This document shows positions 9,462 to 47,160 of a DNA stretch of 64,000 nucleotides, one piece after another. The DNA is taken from the NCBI GenBank assembly GCA_028280115.1, contig JANQMJ010000001.1, positions 1 to 64,000 of the forward strand, written 5' to 3'. The stretch is from Parvularculaceae bacterium. GTDB taxonomy: Bacteria > Pseudomonadota > Alphaproteobacteria > Caulobacterales > Parvularculaceae. Both the position numbers and the translations under genes were made by a program. Positions within the stretch are counted from its first letter, which is position 1. Each line of letters opens with the position of its first letter. The notes under the pieces were generated by a model, which did not search any database, was not told the origin of the DNA, and saw only the letters and a list, made by a program, of their open reading frames with translations.

Positions 9462-10799
9462 TTATTCCGCAGGTAAATGTTCGCCGGCTGGCATGGCCGG
9501 CAGTTTCATATCATCGGCTTGCGTCCGACCGACGCGCGCGGCGAGCGCCGCCGCAACGAGGAACATCAAGCCTTCAAATCCGAAAACAAAAGCGAATGCC
9601 GACGAGACGTCGGTAAAGACGGCGCGCGTTGCGTCAATCGCAGCCGCGCCGAGAAATCCGCCAAGCCCGAAGGCGATCGCTTGCGACGCCCCCCAGATGC
9701 CCATTCGCGTGCCCTCGCGGGACTTTCGCCCGACGCTCGCAAGGGTCATCATGGAGCCGATCGCGGCGACGGCGAACGCGCCGTTGGAAAGGCCGAGCGT
9801 GAACACGTTCAGTTTCAGCGGCCAGCTCGTTCCGACCATCGCGCCGATTGCGAGCGCGATGAGCGACGCGGCCGAGGCGATGCACCCGCCCATGGTCCAG
9901 ATGCGCATGAACCTGGCGCGGGATTTGCCGATGGTCGTGCCGACAATCGCGGTGACGATCATGCCGATCAGGACGCCGCCGTTCTGGACGCCGGCAAGCT
10001 GTGTCGACTCGCCGGGGGAGTAGCCGTAAATCAAACCCGCGAACGGTTCGAGGATCAAATCCTGCGCGCTGTAGGCGAGCATCGAGACGAAAACAAAAAT
10101 TGTAAAACGGCGCGCTTGCTGTTCATCCCAGATTTCGCGGATCGCTTGTTTGAAAGGGACTTTCTTTGCGGGTGAGACCGGCGCGGAAACGGCGCCTTTT
10201 TCGATGTTCCAGACGGCGAGGCTGGCGATAAAAACAGCGACCCCCGCGACTGCACAGGTAACGACGATAAGCCGCGACATCGAGAACGGATCGAGCATGT
10301 GTCCGGCGACGCTTGCTGTCAGTACAAAGCCGAAAATCATCATGATCCAGACGATGGCGGCGGCGGCGGCCTTTCGCGCCGGCGCGGTCCGGGTTGCAAG
10401 GAGCGCAAGCAGGTTGGTGCCGGCTGCGCCGACGCCGACGCCGATCACAAAGAAAGCGACAAAAGCCGCAATAATGCCCGCTGTAACGGCGGTTTCCATG
10501 AGCGCTGTTGCGGCCGCCGCGCCCACGGCGCCCGCGCCGAGCGTCATCATGCCGCCGATAATCCAGGGGGTGCGCGACCCGCCCATATCCGAACCGTAGC
10601 CCCAGCGCGGCCGGGACATCTGGACCGCATAATGCCAGCCCACAAGCGCGCCCGGCAGCATCGCCGGAAGCGCAAGCTCGACGACCATGACGCGGTTCAG
10701 CGTAGAGGTCGTCAAAATGACCATGGCGCCGAGCGCGGTCTGCACCAGGCCCAGCCTGAACACGCCGAGCCAGCTCAGATAAGACTTATCTGCGCTCAT
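9462..10799 (-). CDS. PucC-family major facilitator protein linked to bchG-bchP
   Basis: 445 aa with about 12 membrane spans, in the PucC/BCD family of the major facilitator superfamily. Signatures are LTTSTLNRVMVVELALPA and PRWGYGSDMGGSRTPWIIGG near the N-terminus. In Rhodobacter the orthologue between bchG and bchP (orf428/bch2) is thought to help deliver or assemble bacteriochlorophyll into pigment-proteins; the transported substrate is not established. Its ATG overlaps the bchG stop (ATGA). It is a paralogue of the lhaA-like gene at 23235. No LH2 genes are present, so a pucC role in LH2 assembly is unlikely. Confidence 0.93.
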   Translation of the reverse strand: MSADKSYLSWLGVFRLGLVQTALGAMVILTTSTLNRVMVVELALPAMLPGALVGWHYAVQMSRPRWGYGSDMGGSRTPWIIGGMMTLGAGAVGAAAATALMETAVTAGIIAAFVAFFVIGVGVGAAGTNLLALLATRTAPARKAAAAAIVWIMMIFGFVLTASVAGHMLDPFSMSRLIVVTCAVAGVAVFIASLAVWNIEKGAVSAPVSPAKKVPFKQAIREIWDEQQARRFTIFVFVSMLAYSAQDLILEPFAGLIYGYSPGESTQLAGVQNGGVLIGMIVTAIVGTTIGKSRARFMRIWTMGGCIASAASLIALAIGAMVGTSWPLKLNVFTLGLSNGAFAVAAIGSMMTLASVGRKSREGTRMGIWGASQAIAFGLGGFLGAAAIDATRAVFTDVSSAFAFVFGFEGLMFLVAAALAARVGRTQADDMKLPAMPAGEHLPAE

Positions 10800-11710
10800 A
10801 AGGCGCCTCCTGCAAAGGTCCTGACCGCCATCGCCGCGACCAGCATGCCGAGCACGTATAGGGAAACACCCGTCGCATTGTACCAGGGCGCTTTGCCGCG
10901 CGGGTCTTTCAACATTTCTCTCATGCAGAAAATCTGGGCAATCAGCACTACACCAATGATGGCCGCATGAACCGGCCGGCCGAGGGCGGCAAGCCCGGCG
11001 ACAACGACGACCTGCGGAACCGCCATGACAAAACAGGCAAGCTTTGCGGCTCTTTCAGGTCCAAGTTGAACCGGCAGCGTGCGCACGCCCATGCGCGTAT
11101 CGCCTTCGATCGCCTTAAAGTCGTTGAGCGTCATAATACCGTGGGCGCCCAGCGAATAAAGCAGCGCCAATGCGACGATCGGCCAGCCAGGCATCGCGCC
11201 GAGCATCACCGCCGCGCCGGTAAACCAGGCGATTCCTTCGTAAGACAGTCCGACGGTGGCGTTTCCCCACCAGCCGTTCATTTTCAATCGAAGGGGCGGC
11301 GCGCTGTAGACCCAGGCGAGAAAAACCGCGAACACAGTTGCGACAAAGGCCCAGGTTCCAAGCACGGCGCCCAAGGCGAGCGACAGGCCGGACCAGAAGA
11401 TCGCAATGTAAAGTCCCCAGCGACCCGGGATGCGGCCCGACGGAATCGGACGGTTCGGCTCATTAATCGCGTCGACTTCTCTATCAAACCAGTCATTGGC
11501 CGCCTGGCTCGCCGCGCATACAAGCGGGCCCGCCAGCAACACGCCGCCGAGAAAGAAAAGCCATCGCTCAGAGATGGGTTGCCCCGAAGAAACCACCCCG
11601 CACATGAAAGCCCACATGGGCGCGAACCATGTGACCGGCTTGAGCAATTCCAGAACCGCCGAGGGCGCCGGCAGTGTTCTTTGTTGCAGCGCTAGGGGAG
11701 TGTTTGACAC
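10796..11710 (-). CDS. bchG: Bacteriochlorophyll synthase (geranylgeranyl transferase)
   Basis: 304 aa UbiA-family prenyltransferase with eight or nine membrane spans. It esterifies bacteriochlorophyllide a with geranylgeranyl diphosphate. Both Asp-rich motifs are visible: NDWFDREVDAINEPNRPIP (about 73-91), and DFKAIEGDTRMG in the second half. The start is GTG at 11710; the next downstream Met is too far in to leave the N-terminus intact. Two PpsR-type palindromes lie immediately upstream, and the start codon is only a few bases from the predicted -10 element. It is the first gene of a six-gene minus-strand run ending in hemC. Confidence 0.96.
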   Translation of the reverse strand: MSNTPLALQQRTLPAPSAVLELLKPVTWFAPMWAFMCGVVSSGQPISERWLFFLGGVLLAGPLVCAASQAANDWFDREVDAINEPNRPIPSGRIPGRWGLYIAIFWSGLSLALGAVLGTWAFVATVFAVFLAWVYSAPPLRLKMNGWWGNATVGLSYEGIAWFTGAAVMLGAMPGWPIVALALLYSLGAHGIMTLNDFKAIEGDTRMGVRTLPVQLGPERAAKLACFVMAVPQVVVVAGLAALGRPVHAAIIGVVLIAQIFCMREMLKDPRGKAPWYNATGVSLYVLGMLVAAMAVRTFAGGAL

Positions 11711-11713
11711 GCC

Positions 11714-11757
11714 TGTAAATTACGCCGGACGTGAATATGTGTCAATTAAAGTTGACG
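11714..11757 (-). promoter_or_regulatory. bchG promoter with paired PpsR-type operators
   Basis: Two TGT-N12-ACG palindromes at 11714-11731 and 11740-11757 lie between the ppsR stop and the bchG start, offset by exactly 26 bp. On the minus strand the upstream site ends in TTGACA, a consensus -35 box. A weak -10 (TAATTT, 11722-11717) falls 17 bases later inside the second site, and the GTG start is 6 bases beyond. The arrangement matches the bchC and crtE control regions. Confidence 0.75.
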
Positions 11758-11778: not shown

Positions 11779-13194
11779 TCAATCGCCTATGCCAAATCGC
11801 TTCAGCTTGGAGTATAAACCCTGTCGGCTCAGCCCCAGCATTTCGGCGGCGGAAGCGCGATTGTCTTCGGTGATTTCAAGGGCGGCCTCGATACACAGCT
11901 TCTCGATAAGATCCGTGGATTCCCGCACGATGTCTTTCAACGAAATTTTGCCGACAAGGCCGGTTAGTTGCTCGGCGGAACTTGGCAATTGTTCGCCGAT
12001 GCGCGAACCGCTTTCCAAACGCCGCGCCACATTGCGGATCGAAAATCCGTATATTTGCTCGTCGTCGCACGGCGCGGCGACCGCTGAGACTTCGACAGTT
12101 TCCTGAATGCCGAACTGATCCCTCAAAACCGTGGAGAAATTTCGCGCAAAACCATGGTTTTTAACATTGGAAATCAACACGTTAAGATCGGTCGGCGAAC
12201 GGCCGAGAAACTCGCCCAAATGGCGATTGACGGGCTGGCCGGCGCTCGACAATCGAACCATTTTCAAAAATGCGCGGTTGGCGGCGACAATTTGCAAATC
12301 TTCATTCGCGACTGCGAAACCGTCTGGAATGTTCTCCAAGACGCTCATCAAGGCGCGGTTCGCCTCGCTTTGATCGACGCGCGCCTTGCCGCTCGGCAGC
12401 GCTCTGACAATGATGCGGCCAGCGTCTCCCAGGCGAAACGCGGACATCATAAGGACGCAGTCTTTGCCGCCCTTAATCTTGACGTTGGCGCATTTTGCCG
12501 AACCGGAGGCCCATGCGTCTGCAATCGACCGATTAATGGCGCGCTCGAATTTTTTCAAGAATTGATCGGCTAGGCGCTCGCCAATGAGAGGCGCGTTCTG
12601 TCGAGAGAATATCTCGGCGGCGGCGGGATTGGCTTCCTCAATCTTCAAGCTGTCGGCGTCCACGATCACGACCGCATAGGAGATCGATTGAAAGAGCATT
12701 TGATACCGCGCTTCCGCTTCGCGCAGCCGATTATAGTCCCGCTCCAATCCTTGATGCGCTTCGACGAGGCGCTGCTGCAAAGCGGAAATAGAGCGCAAGT
12801 CGCGCCCAAGCGCGACAATCCGATTTTTGTCGCCCGTGTTGACGGCTGTGTATTTTATCGGAACGTCGACGCCGGTTTGAGAAGGATGATTGACTTGCCG
12901 CCACAACGGCTTGTCGGCTGGCGACGATTTTAGCAAATCTTCGATTTTTAAACGGCTTTCCACCGTTACGGTGTCGATCCACGGTTTGCCGCGCCACGCC
13001 CGATCATAGCCTTCCGCCGTCAATTCCGGATTGCCGAGCGCGATGTCGCGGACCACGCCTTTATCAATGACGAGCGCCACGTCCGCGGCTGAAGCGACAA
13101 CTTTTGCGGTGACGAAAGCATCGAGATCAGAAAGGAATCTCTTCGGACTTTTGAACGGAACTGCCCGCTCACCAGATGAGGCCGAGACGTCCAT
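11779..13194 (-). CDS. ppsR: PpsR/CrtJ redox-responsive repressor of photosynthesis genes
   Basis: 471 aa from the ATG at 13194. A longer TTG start at 13254 would overlap aerR by 26 bases and add residues unlike the family N-terminus. Domains: an N-terminal region (about 10-130), two PAS domains (about 145-250 with YQMLFQSISYAVVIVDAD, and about 270-380 with ANEDLQIVAANRAFL), and a Fis-type helix-turn-helix at the end (ASAAEMLGLSRQGLYSKL). A Cys just before the helix-turn-helix (C434 in EKLCIEAAL) matches the redox-active Cys of Rhodobacter PpsR/CrtJ. Aerobically the family represses bch, crt and puc genes by binding TGT-N12-ACA palindromes, several of which occur in this window. Confidence 0.96.
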   Translation of the reverse strand: MDVSASSGERAVPFKSPKRFLSDLDAFVTAKVVASAADVALVIDKGVVRDIALGNPELTAEGYDRAWRGKPWIDTVTVESRLKIEDLLKSSPADKPLWRQVNHPSQTGVDVPIKYTAVNTGDKNRIVALGRDLRSISALQQRLVEAHQGLERDYNRLREAEARYQMLFQSISYAVVIVDADSLKIEEANPAAAEIFSRQNAPLIGERLADQFLKKFERAINRSIADAWASGSAKCANVKIKGGKDCVLMMSAFRLGDAGRIIVRALPSGKARVDQSEANRALMSVLENIPDGFAVANEDLQIVAANRAFLKMVRLSSAGQPVNRHLGEFLGRSPTDLNVLISNVKNHGFARNFSTVLRDQFGIQETVEVSAVAAPCDDEQIYGFSIRNVARRLESGSRIGEQLPSSAEQLTGLVGKISLKDIVRESTDLIEKLCIEAALEITEDNRASAAEMLGLSRQGLYSKLKRFGIGD

Positions 13195-13228
13195 ACTGGA
13201 ACCGCAATATCCTATTTGCACCAACCGC

Positions 13229-14167
13229 TTAGCAGCGCGGTTGACTTGATGCAAGCAACTCGGCGCCGATCATCGGCGCCATTTTCGCGTCATGGGCCGC
13301 CCCGTCGGCGCCCACCGCGGAAACCAGTTCCGGGTTTTCGGCGAACAGGCGCCCGCCAACCATGATCATGACCGCTTCATTGCGCGAAGCCGACCGCAAG
13401 TCCGCGATTTCATCGGCGATATCGTCGGCGGTTACGCTGCGCGCGGCCGACAGTCCAACCATATCGAAGCTTTTTTTCGACAACATCGATTGCAGTTCGG
13501 CGCTGGCGGCGCCGGGCTCGCACGACACGCGCCAGCCGGCCCGGCGAAAAAACTCAGCGACCATGACGACGCCGAAAACATGCTGATCGCCGCATGCGGT
13601 CGCCAGCAATATTTTTGATCCATCCGAATCCGCGCCTTTGCGGATCCCCGCGCCGGCGTCAAGAACCGTGCTTTGCGCGCGCAAAATCTCGTGCAACCGG
13701 CAAAGTCCGATGGTGACGTCGGTGAAGTCGCACAGGTCCTCTTCCCACATTTCGCCCAGACGCCTGGCGGTATTGGTCAAGAGATTGAGAAACAGCGCTT
13801 CCCGGGAAAGGCCGCGCTTCACGAGCGCGTCAACATAATTGCGGGCGGCCGCGGCGTTTTCGTTCATCACCGCGTCCAAAAACCCCTCGTGATCACTCTG
13901 GGAAAGGCCGTCCTCTTCAGGCGTCGTCAGTTTTTTGGCCCGCGCATCGCGCTGATAGGCAAGCAATAGCCGCGGAATGATCTCGCCTTCAATGGTGCCA
14001 GACAGAGCCTGTGCGTCAATCTTGGATTGTTTTCTTTCTTTGTCGCGGGAATAGAATGACTTTAGTTTTTCGCCCAGACTGAAGAACGCGGAAATCGCTC
14101 GCTCGCGCGCCTGCTCCATTTGTGAGCCATCGAAACGGTCGCGCAGTTCCTGATTAATATTGTCCAT
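13229..14167 (-). CDS. aerR: AerR/PpaA-type cobalamin-binding antirepressor
   Basis: 312 aa. The C-terminal half is a B12-binding Rossmann domain with the DxHxxG motif (DQHVFG, His196) and a middle helical segment (LGEMWEEDLCDFTDVTIG) that caps cobalamin in relatives. In Rhodobacter AerR/PpaA binds cobalamin, senses light, and counteracts or modulates PpsR/CrtJ. It lies directly upstream of ppsR in the same direction, 34 bases apart, the conserved regulator pair of PGCs. It diverges from bchF across a 462-bp AT-richer spacer. Unlike AppA, no BLUF domain is seen. Confidence 0.93.
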   Translation of the reverse strand: MDNINQELRDRFDGSQMEQARERAISAFFSLGEKLKSFYSRDKERKQSKIDAQALSGTIEGEIIPRLLLAYQRDARAKKLTTPEEDGLSQSDHEGFLDAVMNENAAAARNYVDALVKRGLSREALFLNLLTNTARRLGEMWEEDLCDFTDVTIGLCRLHEILRAQSTVLDAGAGIRKGADSDGSKILLATACGDQHVFGVVMVAEFFRRAGWRVSCEPGAASAELQSMLSKKSFDMVGLSAARSVTADDIADEIADLRSASRNEAVMIMVGGRLFAENPELVSAVGADGAAHDAKMAPMIGAELLASSQPRC

Positions 14168-14513: not shown

Positions 14514-16382
<1,869 letters not shown>

Positions 16383-37999: not shown

Positions 38000-39025
38000 T
38001 CAGATGTCCTCGTAAATGACTTCAAGGGACGGCTTGTCGACCGAGTTCTTCCCGCACATATCAGCGACCGTCGCCGGCTGGAGTTCAAAATCCGCGCCGG
38101 TTTCTTCGGCGGAAAAAAGATTTAGGAGATCGTCATGGACCAGCGGCGTCGGATGGATCGGCGGCGCCGTTGCGACGTTGGTTGCAAGCTCTTCGAACAT
38201 CGGTCCCCAGCGCTCGCCGGGCCTGCCGACGATCTGATAGTTAGCGCTCTTGCGGCGAATGTCCTCGTCGGCGGGGATCGCGGCGAGCAGCGGAATGCCG
38301 ACGGCTTTGGCGAAGTTCGCCGCCTCGCCCGTGCCGTCGTCCTTGTTGATCACCATGCCGGCGACGCCGACATTGCCGCCGAGTTTGCGGAAATATTCGA
38401 CCGCGGAACAAACATTGTTGGCGACGTAAAGCGATTGCAGATCGTTTGAGCCGACGACGATCACCTTCTGGCACATGTCCCGCGCAATCGGCAGACCGAA
38501 ACCGCCGCAGACGACATCGCCCAGGAAGTCCAGGAGGACGTAATCGAAATCCCAGTCGTGAAAGCCGAGTTTTTCCAAAAGCTCAAAGCCGTGAATAATG
38601 CCGCGCCCGCCGCAGCCGCGCCCGACCTCAGGCCCGCCGAGCTCCATGGCGAAAACGCCGTCGCGCTTGAAGCAGACATCGCCGATGGAAACTTCTTCGC
38701 CTGCGTTTTTCTTCTTCGTGGAGGTTTCGATAATGGTCGGACAGGCGCGCCCGCCGAACAGAAGCGACGTCGTATCGCTTTTGGGATCGCAGCCGATGAG
38801 CAGGACCTTCTTGCCCTGTTGCGCCATCATGTAAGAAAGATTGGCGAGGGTGAAGCTCTTGCCGATGCCGCCCTTGCCGTAAATCGCAATGATCTGCGTT
38901 TCTTTGGTGACCGGCCCCGTCGATACGGGATCGGGCTCTTGCGCGGCTTCATTGCGCAGCGCCGCATCCATGTCGGCGGTCGCTTTGGACTTTGAGGGTT
39001 TTTGCTTGTCGTCAAAGGGCGCCAT
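38000..39025 (-). CDS. bchX: Chlorophyllide a reductase iron protein X
   Basis: 341 aa NifH-like ATPase feeding electrons to BchYZ. Walker A is [12 protein letters not shown]; cluster Cys residues are in GRGCGGRGI and [13 protein letters not shown]. The ATG at 39025 has GGAGGAAG 6 bases upstream, so it is preferred over the Met codon at 39043. The first 14 bases overlap the bchC 3' end. It differs from BchL by a longer charged N-terminus and the motif TSLLFGGRACPTIIET. Confidence 0.97.
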   Translation of the reverse strand: MAPFDDKQKPSKSKATADMDAALRNEAAQEPDPVSTGPVTKETQIIAIYGKGGIGKSFTLANLSYMMAQQGKKVLLIGCDPKSDTTSLLFGGRACPTIIETSTKKKNAGEEVSIGDVCFKRDGVFAMELGGPEVGRGCGGRGIIHGFELLEKLGFHDWDFDYVLLDFLGDVVCGGFGLPIARDMCQKVIVVGSNDLQSLYVANNVCSAVEYFRKLGGNVGVAGMVINKDDGTGEAANFAKAVGIPLLAAIPADEDIRRKSANYQIVGRPGERWGPMFEELATNVATAPPIHPTPLVHDDLLNLFSAEETGADFELQPATVADMCGKNSVDKPSLEVIYEDI

Positions 39026-40049
39026 GCGTCTTCCTCCAATCAAGCACCATTTTCAGACAAGCGGTGTCTTCAAAGGCGGTGCGGTAGGCCCGACTTGCCT
39101 GCGAAACGGTTTGGGAATGCGTGATGAGTCCTTTCAGCGACAAGGCGCCAGACCGGACAAGGTCAATCACGGCGTCAAGGTCGTCTTTGACCCACTCTGC
39201 AGCGATGCGAAGACGGGCCTCTTTCATGAAGGCCGGGGGAAAGGCGAAAGAGGGCCGCGTCGAATAAAATCCCGCCAACACAATCTCGCCGCGCGGGCGC
39301 ATATGCGCCATCAGATCGTCGATAATGTTTGCATCGCCGCTGACATCGTAGATGGCGCTGTAATCAGACCGTCCGTCGAATTCGGGCTCCATCACCGCAT
39401 AGCCCTCGCCGTCGGCGCGTTCCGGATCAATCTCCCAGACATTGGGCGGCGGCGCGCCCAAGGCGATCGTCACGCGCGCCAGCAGCCGTCCGAGCACGCC
39501 GTGACCGACAATGAGATCGGGCGGCGCGCCGCCGGCAATTGCGTGATAGGCCGTCGCCGCAAGGGCGAGCAGGACCGCTTCTTTTGGTTTCTCGAAGTCT
39601 ATCACAGCGGCTCGTTCGGCCGGTGCGATAATGCGCGAGGCGGAAGCGCCAAACAGTCCGTATACGTCTTTATAGCAGCTCGCGCCAGGCACGAACACGC
39701 GGCGTCCGATCATGTCTTTGCAGCCGTCCGCCCAGACAACGCGGCCAACCGCTTCGTAACCCGGCACCAATGGATAGCCCATGCCTGGGAAGGGCGGCAT
39801 CTCGCCCGACCACAAGAGTCTTTCCGTGCCGGTGCTGACGCCGCTCCATTCAACGTCAACGACAATGTCCGAAGATTGCGGCGGTTTCAGCGCAAGGCGT
39901 TTAACGCCAAGGTTTTTTGCGCCTTCGAAAACAACGGCGTCCGCTTCAAGTAAAATTTCGTCTAGCGGTTCGCTATCCGCGTTCAGGCAATGGCTGGCGG
40001 ATGGTCGTGCGTCGGAAGCCGCGCCTCGGTCAATGGAAGGAACTTCCAT
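39012..40049 (-). CDS. bchC: 3-hydroxyethyl bacteriochlorophyllide a dehydrogenase
   Basis: 345 aa medium-chain dehydrogenase that oxidises the C3 hydroxyethyl group to acetyl. Family segments: DVEWSGVSTGTERLLWSG, PLVPGYEAVGRVV, and a Rossmann loop VGHGVLGRLLARV. The only ATG at the 5' end is 40049, which adds about 35 residues before the usual BchC start; no ATG, GTG or TTG codon lies in frame between. No ribosome-binding site is seen, and the predicted -10 element ends 8 bases before the ATG, so the mRNA may be leaderless. First gene of bchCXYZ-pufQBALM. Confidence 0.95.
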   Translation of the reverse strand: MEVPSIDRGAASDARPSASHCLNADSEPLDEILLEADAVVFEGAKNLGVKRLALKPPQSSDIVVDVEWSGVSTGTERLLWSGEMPPFPGMGYPLVPGYEAVGRVVWADGCKDMIGRRVFVPGASCYKDVYGLFGASASRIIAPAERAAVIDFEKPKEAVLLALAATAYHAIAGGAPPDLIVGHGVLGRLLARVTIALGAPPPNVWEIDPERADGEGYAVMEPEFDGRSDYSAIYDVSGDANIIDDLMAHMRPRGEIVLAGFYSTRPSFAFPPAFMKEARLRIAAEWVKDDLDAVIDLVRSGALSLKGLITHSQTVSQASRAYRTAFEDTACLKMVLDWRKTHGAL

Positions 40050-40053
40050 GGGT

Positions 40054-40097
40054 TGTCATTCTAGATGTACGGTTATGATTGTCAATTCTAATTGACA
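40054..40097 (-). promoter_or_regulatory. bchC promoter with two PpsR-type operators
   Basis: A perfect TGT-N12-ACA palindrome (40080-40097) and a TGT-N12-ACG site (40054-40071) are 26 bp apart. On the minus strand the first contains a consensus -35 TTGACA (40085-40080). After 16 bases the second contains TAGAAT (40063-40058), a 5/6 match to the -10 box. The bchC ATG follows 8 bases later. Repressor bound at both sites would cover both promoter elements. Confidence 0.85.
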
Positions 40098-40107
40098 CTC
40101 AACCGCG

Positions 40108-41181
40108 TCAGGAAGCGATGACAATTCGGGTGAGCGCCGGGCGCCGAGTGCCGACCGATTTCGCATGTGCGAAGCCGGCTTCATTCAAGAATTTTTTGAT
40201 TTCCCTCAAAGAGCGCGGACGACCGGCGCCCATCGCCCAAAGATACATGTGGAAATAGGCGCCGACGGACTGCGCGCCGGGGGTTTCCGCCATGGGCTCG
40301 GCGACGAGCAACGCGCCCCCTTCAGGCAGGGCGCGGCGAATCGAAGACAACAGCATGCGGACGACATCGTCGTCATGATCATGAAGTATGCGGACGAGTG
40401 TGATAATATCCGCGCCTGACGGCAACGCTTCTTCGAGGAAGTTGCACGCAACGGCGTCCGCTTCGATCCCCTCATGCGCGAATCGCTGGCGCGCCATCGC
40501 AGCGACATTCGGCAGGTCGCAAAGGGTCGCTTTGAGATTTGGATATTGTTTCTTTGCAGCGCACAAAAATGCGCCGGCGCCGCCGCCCACGTCAATGAGA
40601 TGGCGATGCTCGGCAAAGGGATAGGCGCTCAGAATTTCGGCGGCGATGAACGCTTGAGTCTGGGCCATGAGCGCCGAGTATTCCTGCTCGCCGCCGGCGG
40701 TGTAATCCCAGAATTTCGCCAGCGCCGTATCCCGTGAGCGATTGCGCAATAGAGCGACGGGGTCGCTCAAATCGGCGTAAAGCGCCCCATGATGCTTGAT
40801 CATTTCGAATGCGGAAGGATTTCCGAGCAGCGCCGCGCCATGGGGCCCGAGCGCCCATCTTTCGCCGCGCCGCTCCAAAAGGCGCAGCGACGTAGCCGCA
40901 TGCGCCAGCCGTTCGGTTCCCGCCATCGGCAAGCCGATTTTTTGCGCGAGCGCCGCAATTTCCAGCGGCCGCGGCTGTAACGCCTCGAACAGCCTAAGTT
41001 CAACGCAGGCAAGGAGAATTTGCGAATAGACAAATCCGGCCGTGAGGTCGAAAGCCTCAACGGCGCGGCGACGCGCGATCGACCGCGTCAATGGAAATGA
41101 CGCCGCCCATTCCTGAAAATCCGGATCGGCGAGCAGCCGATTCCGCCAATCCAACAACCGATCGCGAAGGCCCGTCATCAT
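40108..41181 (-). CDS. crtF: Demethylspheroidene O-methyltransferase
   Basis: 357 aa SAM-dependent methyltransferase of the acetylserotonin-MT-like family. It methylates the C1 hydroxyl of acyclic carotenoids. It has a dimerisation and helix domain (about 1-165) followed by the SAM motif HLIDVGGGAGAFLCAAKK (about 189-206), a catalytic region VRILHDHDDDVVRMLL and the C-terminal RRPALTRIVIAS. It follows crtE by 28 bases in the same direction. With CrtC and CrtD it implies methoxylated spheroidene- or spirilloxanthin-type products. Confidence 0.94.
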   Translation of the reverse strand: MMTGLRDRLLDWRNRLLADPDFQEWAASFPLTRSIARRRAVEAFDLTAGFVYSQILLACVELRLFEALQPRPLEIAALAQKIGLPMAGTERLAHAATSLRLLERRGERWALGPHGAALLGNPSAFEMIKHHGALYADLSDPVALLRNRSRDTALAKFWDYTAGGEQEYSALMAQTQAFIAAEILSAYPFAEHRHLIDVGGGAGAFLCAAKKQYPNLKATLCDLPNVAAMARQRFAHEGIEADAVACNFLEEALPSGADIITLVRILHDHDDDVVRMLLSSIRRALPEGGALLVAEPMAETPGAQSVGAYFHMYLWAMGAGRPRSLREIKKFLNEAGFAHAKSVGTRRPALTRIVIAS

Positions 41182-41209
41182 TTTTGCGGTCGCGAAAGCG
41201 GCGGCGCGA

Positions 41210-42085
41210 TCACACGGCGGCGCTGTTGATATGTTTCGGCGTCAGGCGCTGGGCCTGGGCGTAGACCAGCGCCCGCAAGGCATCCGCGCCGGCGCAGTCC
41301 TCGGGAACCGCATCGGCGGCGTCGTTGACCAGCGCTTCGAGCTGTTCCAGCGCTCCGTCGAGCCCCAGCGAATCGACCGCATTAGGCCGCGCATTGACGG
41401 CGTCCTGACCCGCAGGCTTGCCCAGTGCGGCTTCATCCATGACGAAATCGCGGATATCGTCTGCGATCTGATAGGCTTCGCCAAGTCGCTCGCCGAGCGG
41501 CCCCCATGGCGCGTCGTCGGCCCCCATGGCGGCGGCCCCGGCGGTCGCCGCGGCGACAAACAAGGCGCCTGTTTTTTGCCGGTGATAAGCGCTCAGATCG
41601 ATTTCAGGCTCGCTTTCCCAGGCCTGCCCGGCGACGATGCCGTCCCGCGCGCCCACAGACCGTCCGACGATGTCCATGACTTTTGAAAGGCGGTCCGGCT
41701 GGCCGATGCATTCGCGGACAATGGTTTCGAAGGCCATCACGATCAGGGCGTCGCCGGCGAGCACCGCCAAGGGCTCGCCATAGGCGACATGAACCGACGC
41801 CTTGCCGCGGCGCAGGTCCGCCGCATCGAAACAAGGCAGATCGTCATGCACAAGCGATGCGCAGTGCAAGAGCTCAATCGCCGCGCCGGCGCCGGCGGCG
41901 AGGAGAAGATCGTCGTTCTGGGAACAGGCCTGCGCAACCGCAAGGCAAAGCTGGGGACGCACCCGCGCGCCGCCCGGAAAGACTGCGTGACGAATCGCGG
42001 CACCGAGCTTGGGCGGAGCGTTTGGCCCTTCTGAGGCGACAACGGCGCGCTCAATCGCACGCTCGATCAATGCGTCAGCATTCAT
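41210..42085 (-). CDS. crtE: Geranylgeranyl diphosphate synthase
   Basis: 291 aa trans-prenyltransferase that supplies C20 diphosphate to carotenoids and to the bacteriochlorophyll tail. The first Asp-rich motif is VHDDLPCFDAAD, the second is ADDIRDFVMD, with the usual GGARVRPQL lysine/arginine region (here Arg) near the N-terminus. The ATG at 42085 has AAGGAG 6 bases upstream. It is driven by an operator-fused promoter shared, back to back, with the crtD side. Confidence 0.95.
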   Translation of the reverse strand: MNADALIERAIERAVVASEGPNAPPKLGAAIRHAVFPGGARVRPQLCLAVAQACSQNDDLLLAAGAGAAIELLHCASLVHDDLPCFDAADLRRGKASVHVAYGEPLAVLAGDALIVMAFETIVRECIGQPDRLSKVMDIVGRSVGARDGIVAGQAWESEPEIDLSAYHRQKTGALFVAAATAGAAAMGADDAPWGPLGERLGEAYQIADDIRDFVMDEAALGKPAGQDAVNARPNAVDSLGLDGALEQLEALVNDAADAVPEDCAGADALRALVYAQAQRLTPKHINSAAV

Positions 42086-42099
42086 GGGCGCTCCTTGTG

Positions 42100-42143
42100 T
42101 GTCATTCTAACTAGTCAGTGATATATGTCAAATTATGTTGACG
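42100..42143 (-). promoter_or_regulatory. crtE promoter and paired PpsR-type operators in the crtE-crtD gap
   Basis: TGT-N12-ACG at 42126-42143 and a degenerate TGT-N12-TCA at 42100-42117 are offset by 26 bp. On the minus strand they supply TTGACA (42131-42126), a 16-base spacer and TAGAAT (42109-42104), the same module as at bchC. Here a short leader with AAGGAG follows. A plus-strand promoter for crtD is not clear, but the 42126 site lies 28 bases before the crtD ATG and probably controls both genes. Confidence 0.8.
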
Positions 42144-45615: not shown

Positions 45616-47125
45616 CGGGCGCTATCTTGTCAAGGATTCGCGCTGAAGACAGCACGCCGGGCACGCCGGCGCCGGGATGGGTTCCCGCGCCGACAAGAAA
45701 GAGGTTCTTGACATTCTCCGATTGATTATGGGGTCGGAACCAGGCGCTCTGCGTCAGGATCGGTTCAAGGCTGAAGCCCGATCCCTGAAAGGCGCGCAGG
45801 CGCGTTTTAAAATCGAGCGGCGTCATCATCCGCGAGGTGATGATTTCCTTGTCCAGCCCCGGCAACAAGGTTTCGCTCAACCGCTTTTCAATAGTGCGCC
45901 GGTAAGGCTCGGCCTCGCGCCGCCAGTCAATACCGCTTGCCAGGTTGGGCGTCGGCGAGAGGACGTAAAACGCATCGCATCCTTGCGGCGCCAAAGACGG
46001 ATCGGCTTTCGTGGGCCGGTGGAGATACATGCTGAAATCGTTTGCAAGGCGTTTTCGGGCGAAAATGTCTTTTAGCAGTTGTTTGTAACGCGGCCCTAGC
46101 ATGATCGTATGATGACCGACGTCTTCGTAGCGGCGCTTGGTTCCGAAATACCAGACGAAAAGCCCCATGGAATGGCGCGCCTTTTCGACTTTCTGCTTCG
46201 ACCATTTGCGCGAAACCGTTTCCGGCAAAAGCTCGTGATAGGTGGTCGCCGCATCGGCGTTGGAAACGACGATGTCAGCGTCAACGGTTTCGCCGGTGGT
46301 CAGCCGAACCCCCGTCGCCGCGCCGTCGCGGACAAGAATTTCCGCAACATCGGCGTCAAAGACAATCGTTCCGCCCTGTCCGCGGATCAGCTTGACCAGC
46401 CCGTCGACCAGCGCGCCGGTCCCGCCCCTGGCGAAGTGAACGCCCCAGCGCCGTTCGAGATAAGGGATAAGGCCGTAGACCGCGCTGGCGCTGAAAGGAC
46501 TGCCGCCGATGAGAAGCGGATGGAAGCTGAATACGATGCGAAGCCGGGGGTCTTTAATATATTTCGATACAATACCGTATACGGACCGCAGCCCCTGCAG
46601 GCGCAAAAGCTCCGGCGCGACCCGGACCATGTCGGAAAATCTGGAAAACGGCGCGTCGCCCAATTCTTCGAACGCTTTGCGGCAAAGCTCTTCGCTGAGC
46701 CCCATGAACCGCTCATAGCCGGGCACGTCGGCGGGCGAAAAACGCGCGACTTCGGCGCGCATGTCGTCCGGGTCCCCGCTATAGGCAAAGACCGCGCCGT
46801 CGTCGAAGCGAATCCGGTAAAACGGGCTGACGGGTTCAAGCAAGACGTCATCGGACATGCGCTTTCCGCAAAGCGTCCACAACTCCTCGAACAAAAACGG
46901 CGCGGTGATGATCGTCGGGCCGCCGTCAAAGGTGAAACCGTCCTGCCGGAAGACATAGGCGCGTCCGCCAGGCGCATCGAGTTTTTCAAGAACCGTGACG
47001 CGATAGCCGCGCGCGCCGAGCCTTACCGCCGCCGCGAGCCCGCCGAACCCGCCGCCAATGACGATCGCCGTCGGCCTTCGGTCGGGCCGCGCAGCAACGA
47101 CGGTTGTGTCGGGTCGTGTCAACAT
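45596..47125 (-). CDS. crtI: Phytoene desaturase
   Basis: 509 aa FAD enzyme that desaturates phytoene to neurosporene or lycopene. FAD motif: IVIGGGFGGLAAAVRLGARG (about 22-41); then LDAPGGRAYVFRQDGFTFDG; the C-terminal block is LFLVGAGTHPGAGVPGV. The start is the ATG at 47125 (or the TTG directly after it), and no other start codon occurs before the FAD motif. This ATG lies inside a perfect PpsR palindrome and has no ribosome-binding site. The number of desaturation steps cannot be read from sequence. Confidence 0.96.
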   Translation of the reverse strand: MLTRPDTTVVAARPDRRPTAIVIGGGFGGLAAAVRLGARGYRVTVLEKLDAPGGRAYVFRQDGFTFDGGPTIITAPFLFEELWTLCGKRMSDDVLLEPVSPFYRIRFDDGAVFAYSGDPDDMRAEVARFSPADVPGYERFMGLSEELCRKAFEELGDAPFSRFSDMVRVAPELLRLQGLRSVYGIVSKYIKDPRLRIVFSFHPLLIGGSPFSASAVYGLIPYLERRWGVHFARGGTGALVDGLVKLIRGQGGTIVFDADVAEILVRDGAATGVRLTTGETVDADIVVSNADAATTYHELLPETVSRKWSKQKVEKARHSMGLFVWYFGTKRRYEDVGHHTIMLGPRYKQLLKDIFARKRLANDFSMYLHRPTKADPSLAPQGCDAFYVLSPTPNLASGIDWRREAEPYRRTIEKRLSETLLPGLDKEIITSRMMTPLDFKTRLRAFQGSGFSLEPILTQSAWFRPHNQSENVKNLFLVGAGTHPGAGVPGVLSSARILDKIAPDASCFV

Positions 47126-47160
47126 GAGTTGACATTAAACCGTGTCTTGGCGGCCGATAC
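47117..47160 (-). promoter_or_regulatory. crtI control region: PpsR operator covering the start codon
   Basis: A perfect TGT-N12-ACA palindrome at 47117-47134 contains the crtI ATG (47125-47123). A half-matching site (TGT-N12-TAC) lies exactly 26 bp upstream at 47143-47160. On the minus strand a -10-like TTTAAT (47139-47134) ends 8 bases before the ATG, with a poor -35 (TTGTAT) 17 bases further up. This predicts a leaderless or near-leaderless transcript. Confidence 0.75.

Follow-up and report, generated by a model that had tools for sequence, protein, structure and literature searches.

In the bchC promoter of Rhodobacter capsulatus, footprinting and ChIP-exo place CrtJ palindromes at -47 to -30 and at -21 to -4, covering the -35 and -10 elements (PMC5362033). 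Two copies of the CrtJ/PpsR palindrome typically lie eight nucleotides apart (PMC9144470), and 18-bp sites with an 8-bp gap thus give a 26-bp distance between site starts, as published. Alphaproteobacteria are known to make leaderless mRNAs (PMC3616915; PMC3017554), and work cited in PMC3616915 reports non-AUG start codons to be inefficient on them.

The window analysed here, a stretch of 64 kb (64,000 nucleotides) from an alphaproteobacterial genome of 2.99 Mb in 30 contigs, is a photosynthesis gene cluster. Family profiles or position identify bchC, crtE, crtF, bchX, bchY, crtD, crtC, crtB, crtI, bchO, bchD, bchI, bchN, bchG, ppsR and an aerR-like gene. The best match to bchC is in the metagenome-assembled genome Parvularcula sp. 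BBD 1991-13 (71% identity). An order-level search found bchG in no more than 3 of the roughly 17 genomes sampled from the genus, and by this count the photosynthesis cluster is patchy within the genus.

Three elements of the window, at bchC, crtE and bchG, are very probably classical PpsR/CrtJ operator pairs that overlap predicted promoters, the well-known oxygen/light switch of pigment genes, with bchG, and bchC in this genus, predicted to be leaderless or nearly so.

Probable operator pairs and predicted promoter boxes in the window

The cluster encodes PpsR. The ppsR/crtJ gene (11779-13254, minus strand) scores 395.8 bits against TIGR02040 (cut-off 275.4), carries PAS domains and a Fis-type helix-turn-helix (HTH_8), and matches the PpsR structure PDB 4hh2 with an E value of 1.2e-34. 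Beside it lies a gene for an AerR/PpaA-like B12-binding regulator (13229-14167, minus strand; PF02310, E 9.9e-13) with the motif GDQHVFG (DxHxxG).

All three modules lie on the minus strand, with exactly 8 nt between their sites. The bchC gene (39012-40049; TIGR01202 BchC, 406.9 bits; ATG at 40049) is preceded by TGTCAATTAGAATTGACA-N8-CGTACATCTAGAATGACA, whose sites start 26 bp apart. The upper (distal) palindrome, TGTCAATTAGAATTGACA (40080-40097), matches TGTCAA-N6-TTGACA at 12/12 positions and its 3' arm is the -35 box TTGACA, while the lower (proximal) one, CGTACATCTAGAATGACA (40054-40071), holds the -10 box TAGAAT; the ATG follows 4 nt past it. The sequence-only reading had missed a third site, TGTCATCGCTTCCTGACG on the minus strand (CGTCAGGAAGCGATGACA on the plus strand; 40106-40123), which lies another 26 bp upstream of the upper palindrome, matches at 9/12 positions and overlaps the 3' end of crtF. 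No counterpart 26 bp upstream was found in 29 relatives (best score 7/12), and we rejected a three-site array at bchC on the ground that the third site is unconserved.

At crtE (41210-42085) the module is CGTCAACATAATTTGACA-N8-TGACTAGTTAGAATGACA, again with starts differing by 26 bp: the upper palindrome CGTCAACATAATTTGACA (42126-42143) carries the -35 TTGACA and the lower, degenerate one, TGACTAGTTAGAATGACA (42100-42117), the -10 TAGAAT. Between the lower palindrome and the ATG lie 14 nt that contain AAGGAG. The gene belongs to the polyprenyl diphosphate synthase family; its profile scores (NF045485, 187.6 bits; NF045685 CrtE, 157.8 bits) are both below cut-off, and locus position and neighbours fit the crtE assignment. 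Read on the plus strand towards crtD, the same module (42100-42143) shows a promoter-like TAGTCA-N16-TATGTTGACG. This plus-strand TAnnnT also occurs in two genus relatives but not generally. We rejected a bidirectional crtE-crtD cassette, as a reverse-strand TAnnnT is found in only 8 of 53 crtE and 6 of 79 bchC modules in relatives; such an arrangement would at most be confined to this genus.

The bchG module, CGTCAACTTTAATTGACA-N8-CGTCCGGCGTAATTTACA, has the same 26-bp difference between starts. Its upper palindrome CGTCAACTTTAATTGACA (11740-11757) matches at 11/12 positions and provides TTGACA, and the degenerate lower palindrome CGTCCGGCGTAATTTACA (11714-11731) contains TAATTT at a 17-bp spacer. 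The gene itself (10796-11710; TIGR01476, 356.4 bits) starts with GTG at 11710.

The sequence-only reading had proposed these three pairs, with their coordinates and 26-bp spacing, as TGT-N12-ACA-type sites. Coordinates and spacing are correct at all three genes; the full TGT-N12-ACA is present at 40080 only, as the sites at 40054, 11714, 11740 and 42126 end in ACG and that at 42100 in TCA. Beside the perfect palindrome, the others are mostly one base off in the six-base core. Its further proposal, that operator arms double as promoter boxes, holds at bchC and crtE, both of which read TTGACA-N16-TAGAATGACA. At bchG, for which it had given TTGACA with a weaker -10, the -35 box stands and a better -10 is the TAATTT of TTGACA-N17-TAATTT, a register conserved in relatives.

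Two further promoter regions are built differently. Between bchF and bchN, two palindromes on the plus strand (14514-14547) start 16 bp apart and overlap by 2 bp, which is not the 26-bp form. The probable TTG start of bchF, near 14629, is closely preceded by the end of a 16-codon upstream ORF whose ATG is at about 14577. At crtI, a PpsR-type palindrome matching at 12/12 positions (47117-47134) spans the annotated start codon (ATG 47125, minus strand) and lacks a good partner at 26 bp; crtI may really start downstream of the annotated ATG.

Pairing, spacing and -10 register in related clusters

Chance accounts poorly for the pairs. At a distance of 26 bp and a summed match of at least 19/24, the window contains four site pairs and 60 first-order Markov simulations contained none, with simulated pairs of that quality at any distance from 19 to 80 amounting to 0.03 per window. 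The composite TTGACA-N16-TAnnnTGACA has exactly two exact matches in the 2.99-Mb genome, those at bchC and crtE. Single TGT-N12-ACA matches show only mild enrichment, 7 where 3.5 were expected; the signal is carried by the pairing and the composite, not by single sites.

The enrichment of 26-bp pairs in related clusters, which the sequence-only reading had named as a check, is borne out: with both sites required to match at 8/12 or more at bchC, the pair is present at 64 of 80 bchC and 32 of 56 crtE loci and at none of 229 coding controls. The next commonest distance at bchC, 13 bp, corresponds to the half-site register (27 loci). Across 73 bchC modules, the lower site has T at module position 35 in 59, A at 36 in 57 and T at 40 in 64, which together are the -10 TAnnnT; positions 35 and 36 fall in the palindrome centre, which does not enter the score. 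The same register is seen in 28 of 29 order-level bchC modules. Compared with a centre-shuffled expectation, TAnnnT lies in the lower site in 64 of 79 modules at bchC (10.7 expected), 18 of 22 at bchG (3.7) and 12 of 53 at crtE (4.4). By these counts the pair is general; bchC and bchG generally have it fused to the -10, and the crtE fusion is limited to some lineages, including this one. The operator pairs with arms doubling as promoter boxes are thus supported by spacing, relatives and published geometry, and the classical two-site CrtJ/PpsR promoter keeps one spacing across phototrophic Proteobacteria. The idea of a cluster-wide promoter cassette fails, given the different build at bchF and crtI and the low count at crtE.

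The bchG start codon

The GTG of bchG at 11710 coincides with the predicted +1. It lies 35 nt from TTGACA and about 6-7 nt past the -10, and if transcription starts as in R. capsulatus, with -4 as the last position of the lower site, +1 falls on the first base of the GTG. A start codon on +1 predicts a leaderless bchG mRNA.

This geometry recurs in relatives. The start codon lies 2-4 nt past the lower site in 33 of 37 bchG loci with a good module. With the upstream palindrome as anchor instead, 35 of the 37 have 34-36 nt from TTGACR to the start codon, and 23 of them exactly 35; at one further locus (L142) the script settled on a TTG, behind which inspection places an ATG at 36 nt. In 33 of 37 promoters, a 17-bp spacer separates TTGACR from TAnnnT. 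No Shine-Dalgarno core was found before the bchG start in any of the 37 loci, compared with 23 of 24 for crtE, which has a longer gap. The start is GTG in the window and in two genus relatives and ATG in most other relatives.

We also checked deposited chlG starts on eight plasmid records, and they are consistent with the scanned bchG geometry. The start lies 3 nt past the module in Thiodictyon, a gammaproteobacterium, and in Sulfitobacter S190, and 1 nt past the lower palindrome, with the upper site lost, in Roseobacter litoralis, Thalassococcus and Tateyamaria. By inspection, it is 2 nt past the lower palindrome in Roseinatronobacter and S. guttiformis, and Novosphingobium capsulatum reads TTGACG-N18-TAGTCT-N6-ATG.

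On balance we think it probable that bchG is conserved as a leaderless gene across Alphaproteobacteria and at least one gammaproteobacterium, with PpsR operator, promoter and start codon forming one block of about 50 bp in which repressor, RNA polymerase and ribosome entry point would share bases, and that bchC is arranged likewise in this genus and the neighbouring family. The prediction is drawn from promoter geometry; its weak point is that this genus starts bchG with GTG. In the open-access literature we found neither leaderless bch genes nor a transcription start for bchG.

A possible but less likely reading is that bchG is not leaderless and is translated from read-through RNA begun upstream of ppsR or aerR, the short promoter being weak or silent. 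The end of ppsR lies 68 bp upstream on the same strand, and the GTG start would fit such RNA better in view of the inefficiency of non-AUG starts on leaderless mRNA reported in work that PMC3616915 cites. A ribosome site would be needed on read-through RNA as well, however, and the 37 loci lack a Shine-Dalgarno core; the -10-to-start distance, moreover, is held across the class and in a gammaproteobacterium whose upstream neighbour is not ppsR. If the leaderless reading is right, many phototrophs would translate a late enzyme of bacteriochlorophyll synthesis from an mRNA without a leader. Pigment output could then be tied to conditions favouring leaderless translation, and the prediction is easily tested.

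In this genus and the neighbouring family (f140), bchC looks alike in the way its promoter meets the start codon, and in other relatives it has ordinary leaders. The window ORF offers no alternative in-frame ATG, GTG or TTG within its first 50 codons. In the genus and this family the predicted BchC would be longer at its N terminus by about 20-35 residues, which are poorly conserved; a codon-difference comparison over 33 codons of this putative extension (6 synonymous and 16 non-synonymous differences, against 125 and 70 in the remainder of the gene) showed no clear coding signature.

Proposed mechanism and comparison with known systems

From the sequences, with the spacing, conservation and gene context they show, we infer cooperative binding of PpsR to the two 18-bp palindromes across their 8-bp gap. 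PpsR occupancy at high oxygen would block RNA polymerase, because the 3' arm of the upper palindrome is the -35 box and the lower palindrome holds the -10; the AerR-like protein encoded next to ppsR would relieve or reverse the repression. In the upper site TTGACA fills positions 13-18, and in the lower site TA falls at position 9 (bchC, crtE) or 10 (bchG), so the 8-bp gap sets a spacer of 16 or 17 bp. One spacing could thereby serve both repressor cooperativity and the sigma-70 promoter, which we offer as a reason why it has been kept. At bchG, and at bchC in this genus, the promoter would run directly into the start codon, leaving the predicted mRNA with no leader or almost none.

Sequence does not fully separate the constraints on the promoter from those on the operator, which overlap. 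It is very improbable that the promoter alone is conserved, with the palindromes following from the TTGACA boxes and their neighbours and the 26 bp from the -35/-10 spacing. Such a reading would fit bchG, where -35, -10 and start codon geometry persist at four loci of relatives (L113, L115, L118, L127) despite decay of the lower palindrome; only 10 of 37 bchG modules retain the lower right arm, and the full pair may be dispensable there. The left arms (GT of TGT/CGT), however, lie outside the -35 and -10 boxes and are near invariant in the 73 bchC modules; these were picked by palindrome score, so that part of the invariance is selection, and the coding controls were free of 26-bp pairs. In addition, ppsR lies in the cluster.

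TGT-N12-ACA-like palindromes can serve other families, but that a different regulator reading TGTCA/TGACA half-sites uses these sites is likewise very improbable: bchC and crtE are known PpsR targets, the geometry of the sites is the published one, and ppsR lies in the cluster. Pairs of another type do occur outside the window: a TGTAAAGGAnCCTTGACA / TGTAAAG-palindrome pair with 37-bp spacing is present in two copies (L145, 4438-4492; L146, 7287-7341), one of them directly before an amidohydrolase-like gene. In genome coordinates, TGTAAAG-type pairs with this spacing stand at C21:64437/64474 and C23:175286/175323, by an amidohydrolase-like gene and in an unrelated region; we set them aside, as they probably belong to another regulator.

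The preferred reading, PpsR/CrtJ operator pairs overlapping promoters, brings the window close to described systems. In Rubrivivax gelatinosus, pucB and crtI have paired PpsR sites that include the TGT-N12-ACG variant, with an 8-bp gap at crtI and, at pucB, a 9-bp gap linked to redox-dependent binding (PMC4452267); no 27-bp pair of the pucB type was found within the window. For bchG, the leaderless mRNAs of S. meliloti (PMC3616915) and of the R. sphaeroides acuR-acuI-dddL operon (PMC3017554) are the nearest likeness, bchG being predicted to share the start codon on the transcription start and having no Shine-Dalgarno; those were mapped experimentally, whereas bchG here is predicted from promoter geometry, and the S. 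meliloti set is AUG only, unlike the GTG of the window. The closest counterpart is R. capsulatus bchC (PMC5362033, PMC9144470), which shares the TGT-N12-ACA-type pair with starts 26 bp apart, the upper site on the -35 and the lower on the -10, and a ppsR/crtJ gene with an aerR-like gene. Here, by comparison, most palindromes are one core base off, bchC has a third, unconserved site at a further 26 bp upstream, and at bchC and bchG the start codon stands at the very end of the promoter. The exact spacing and the fusion are therefore the arrangement already published for R. capsulatus bchC and not a new cassette; the window's modules are of the classical CrtJ/PpsR form, and what is added here is a testable prediction for the start of bchG.
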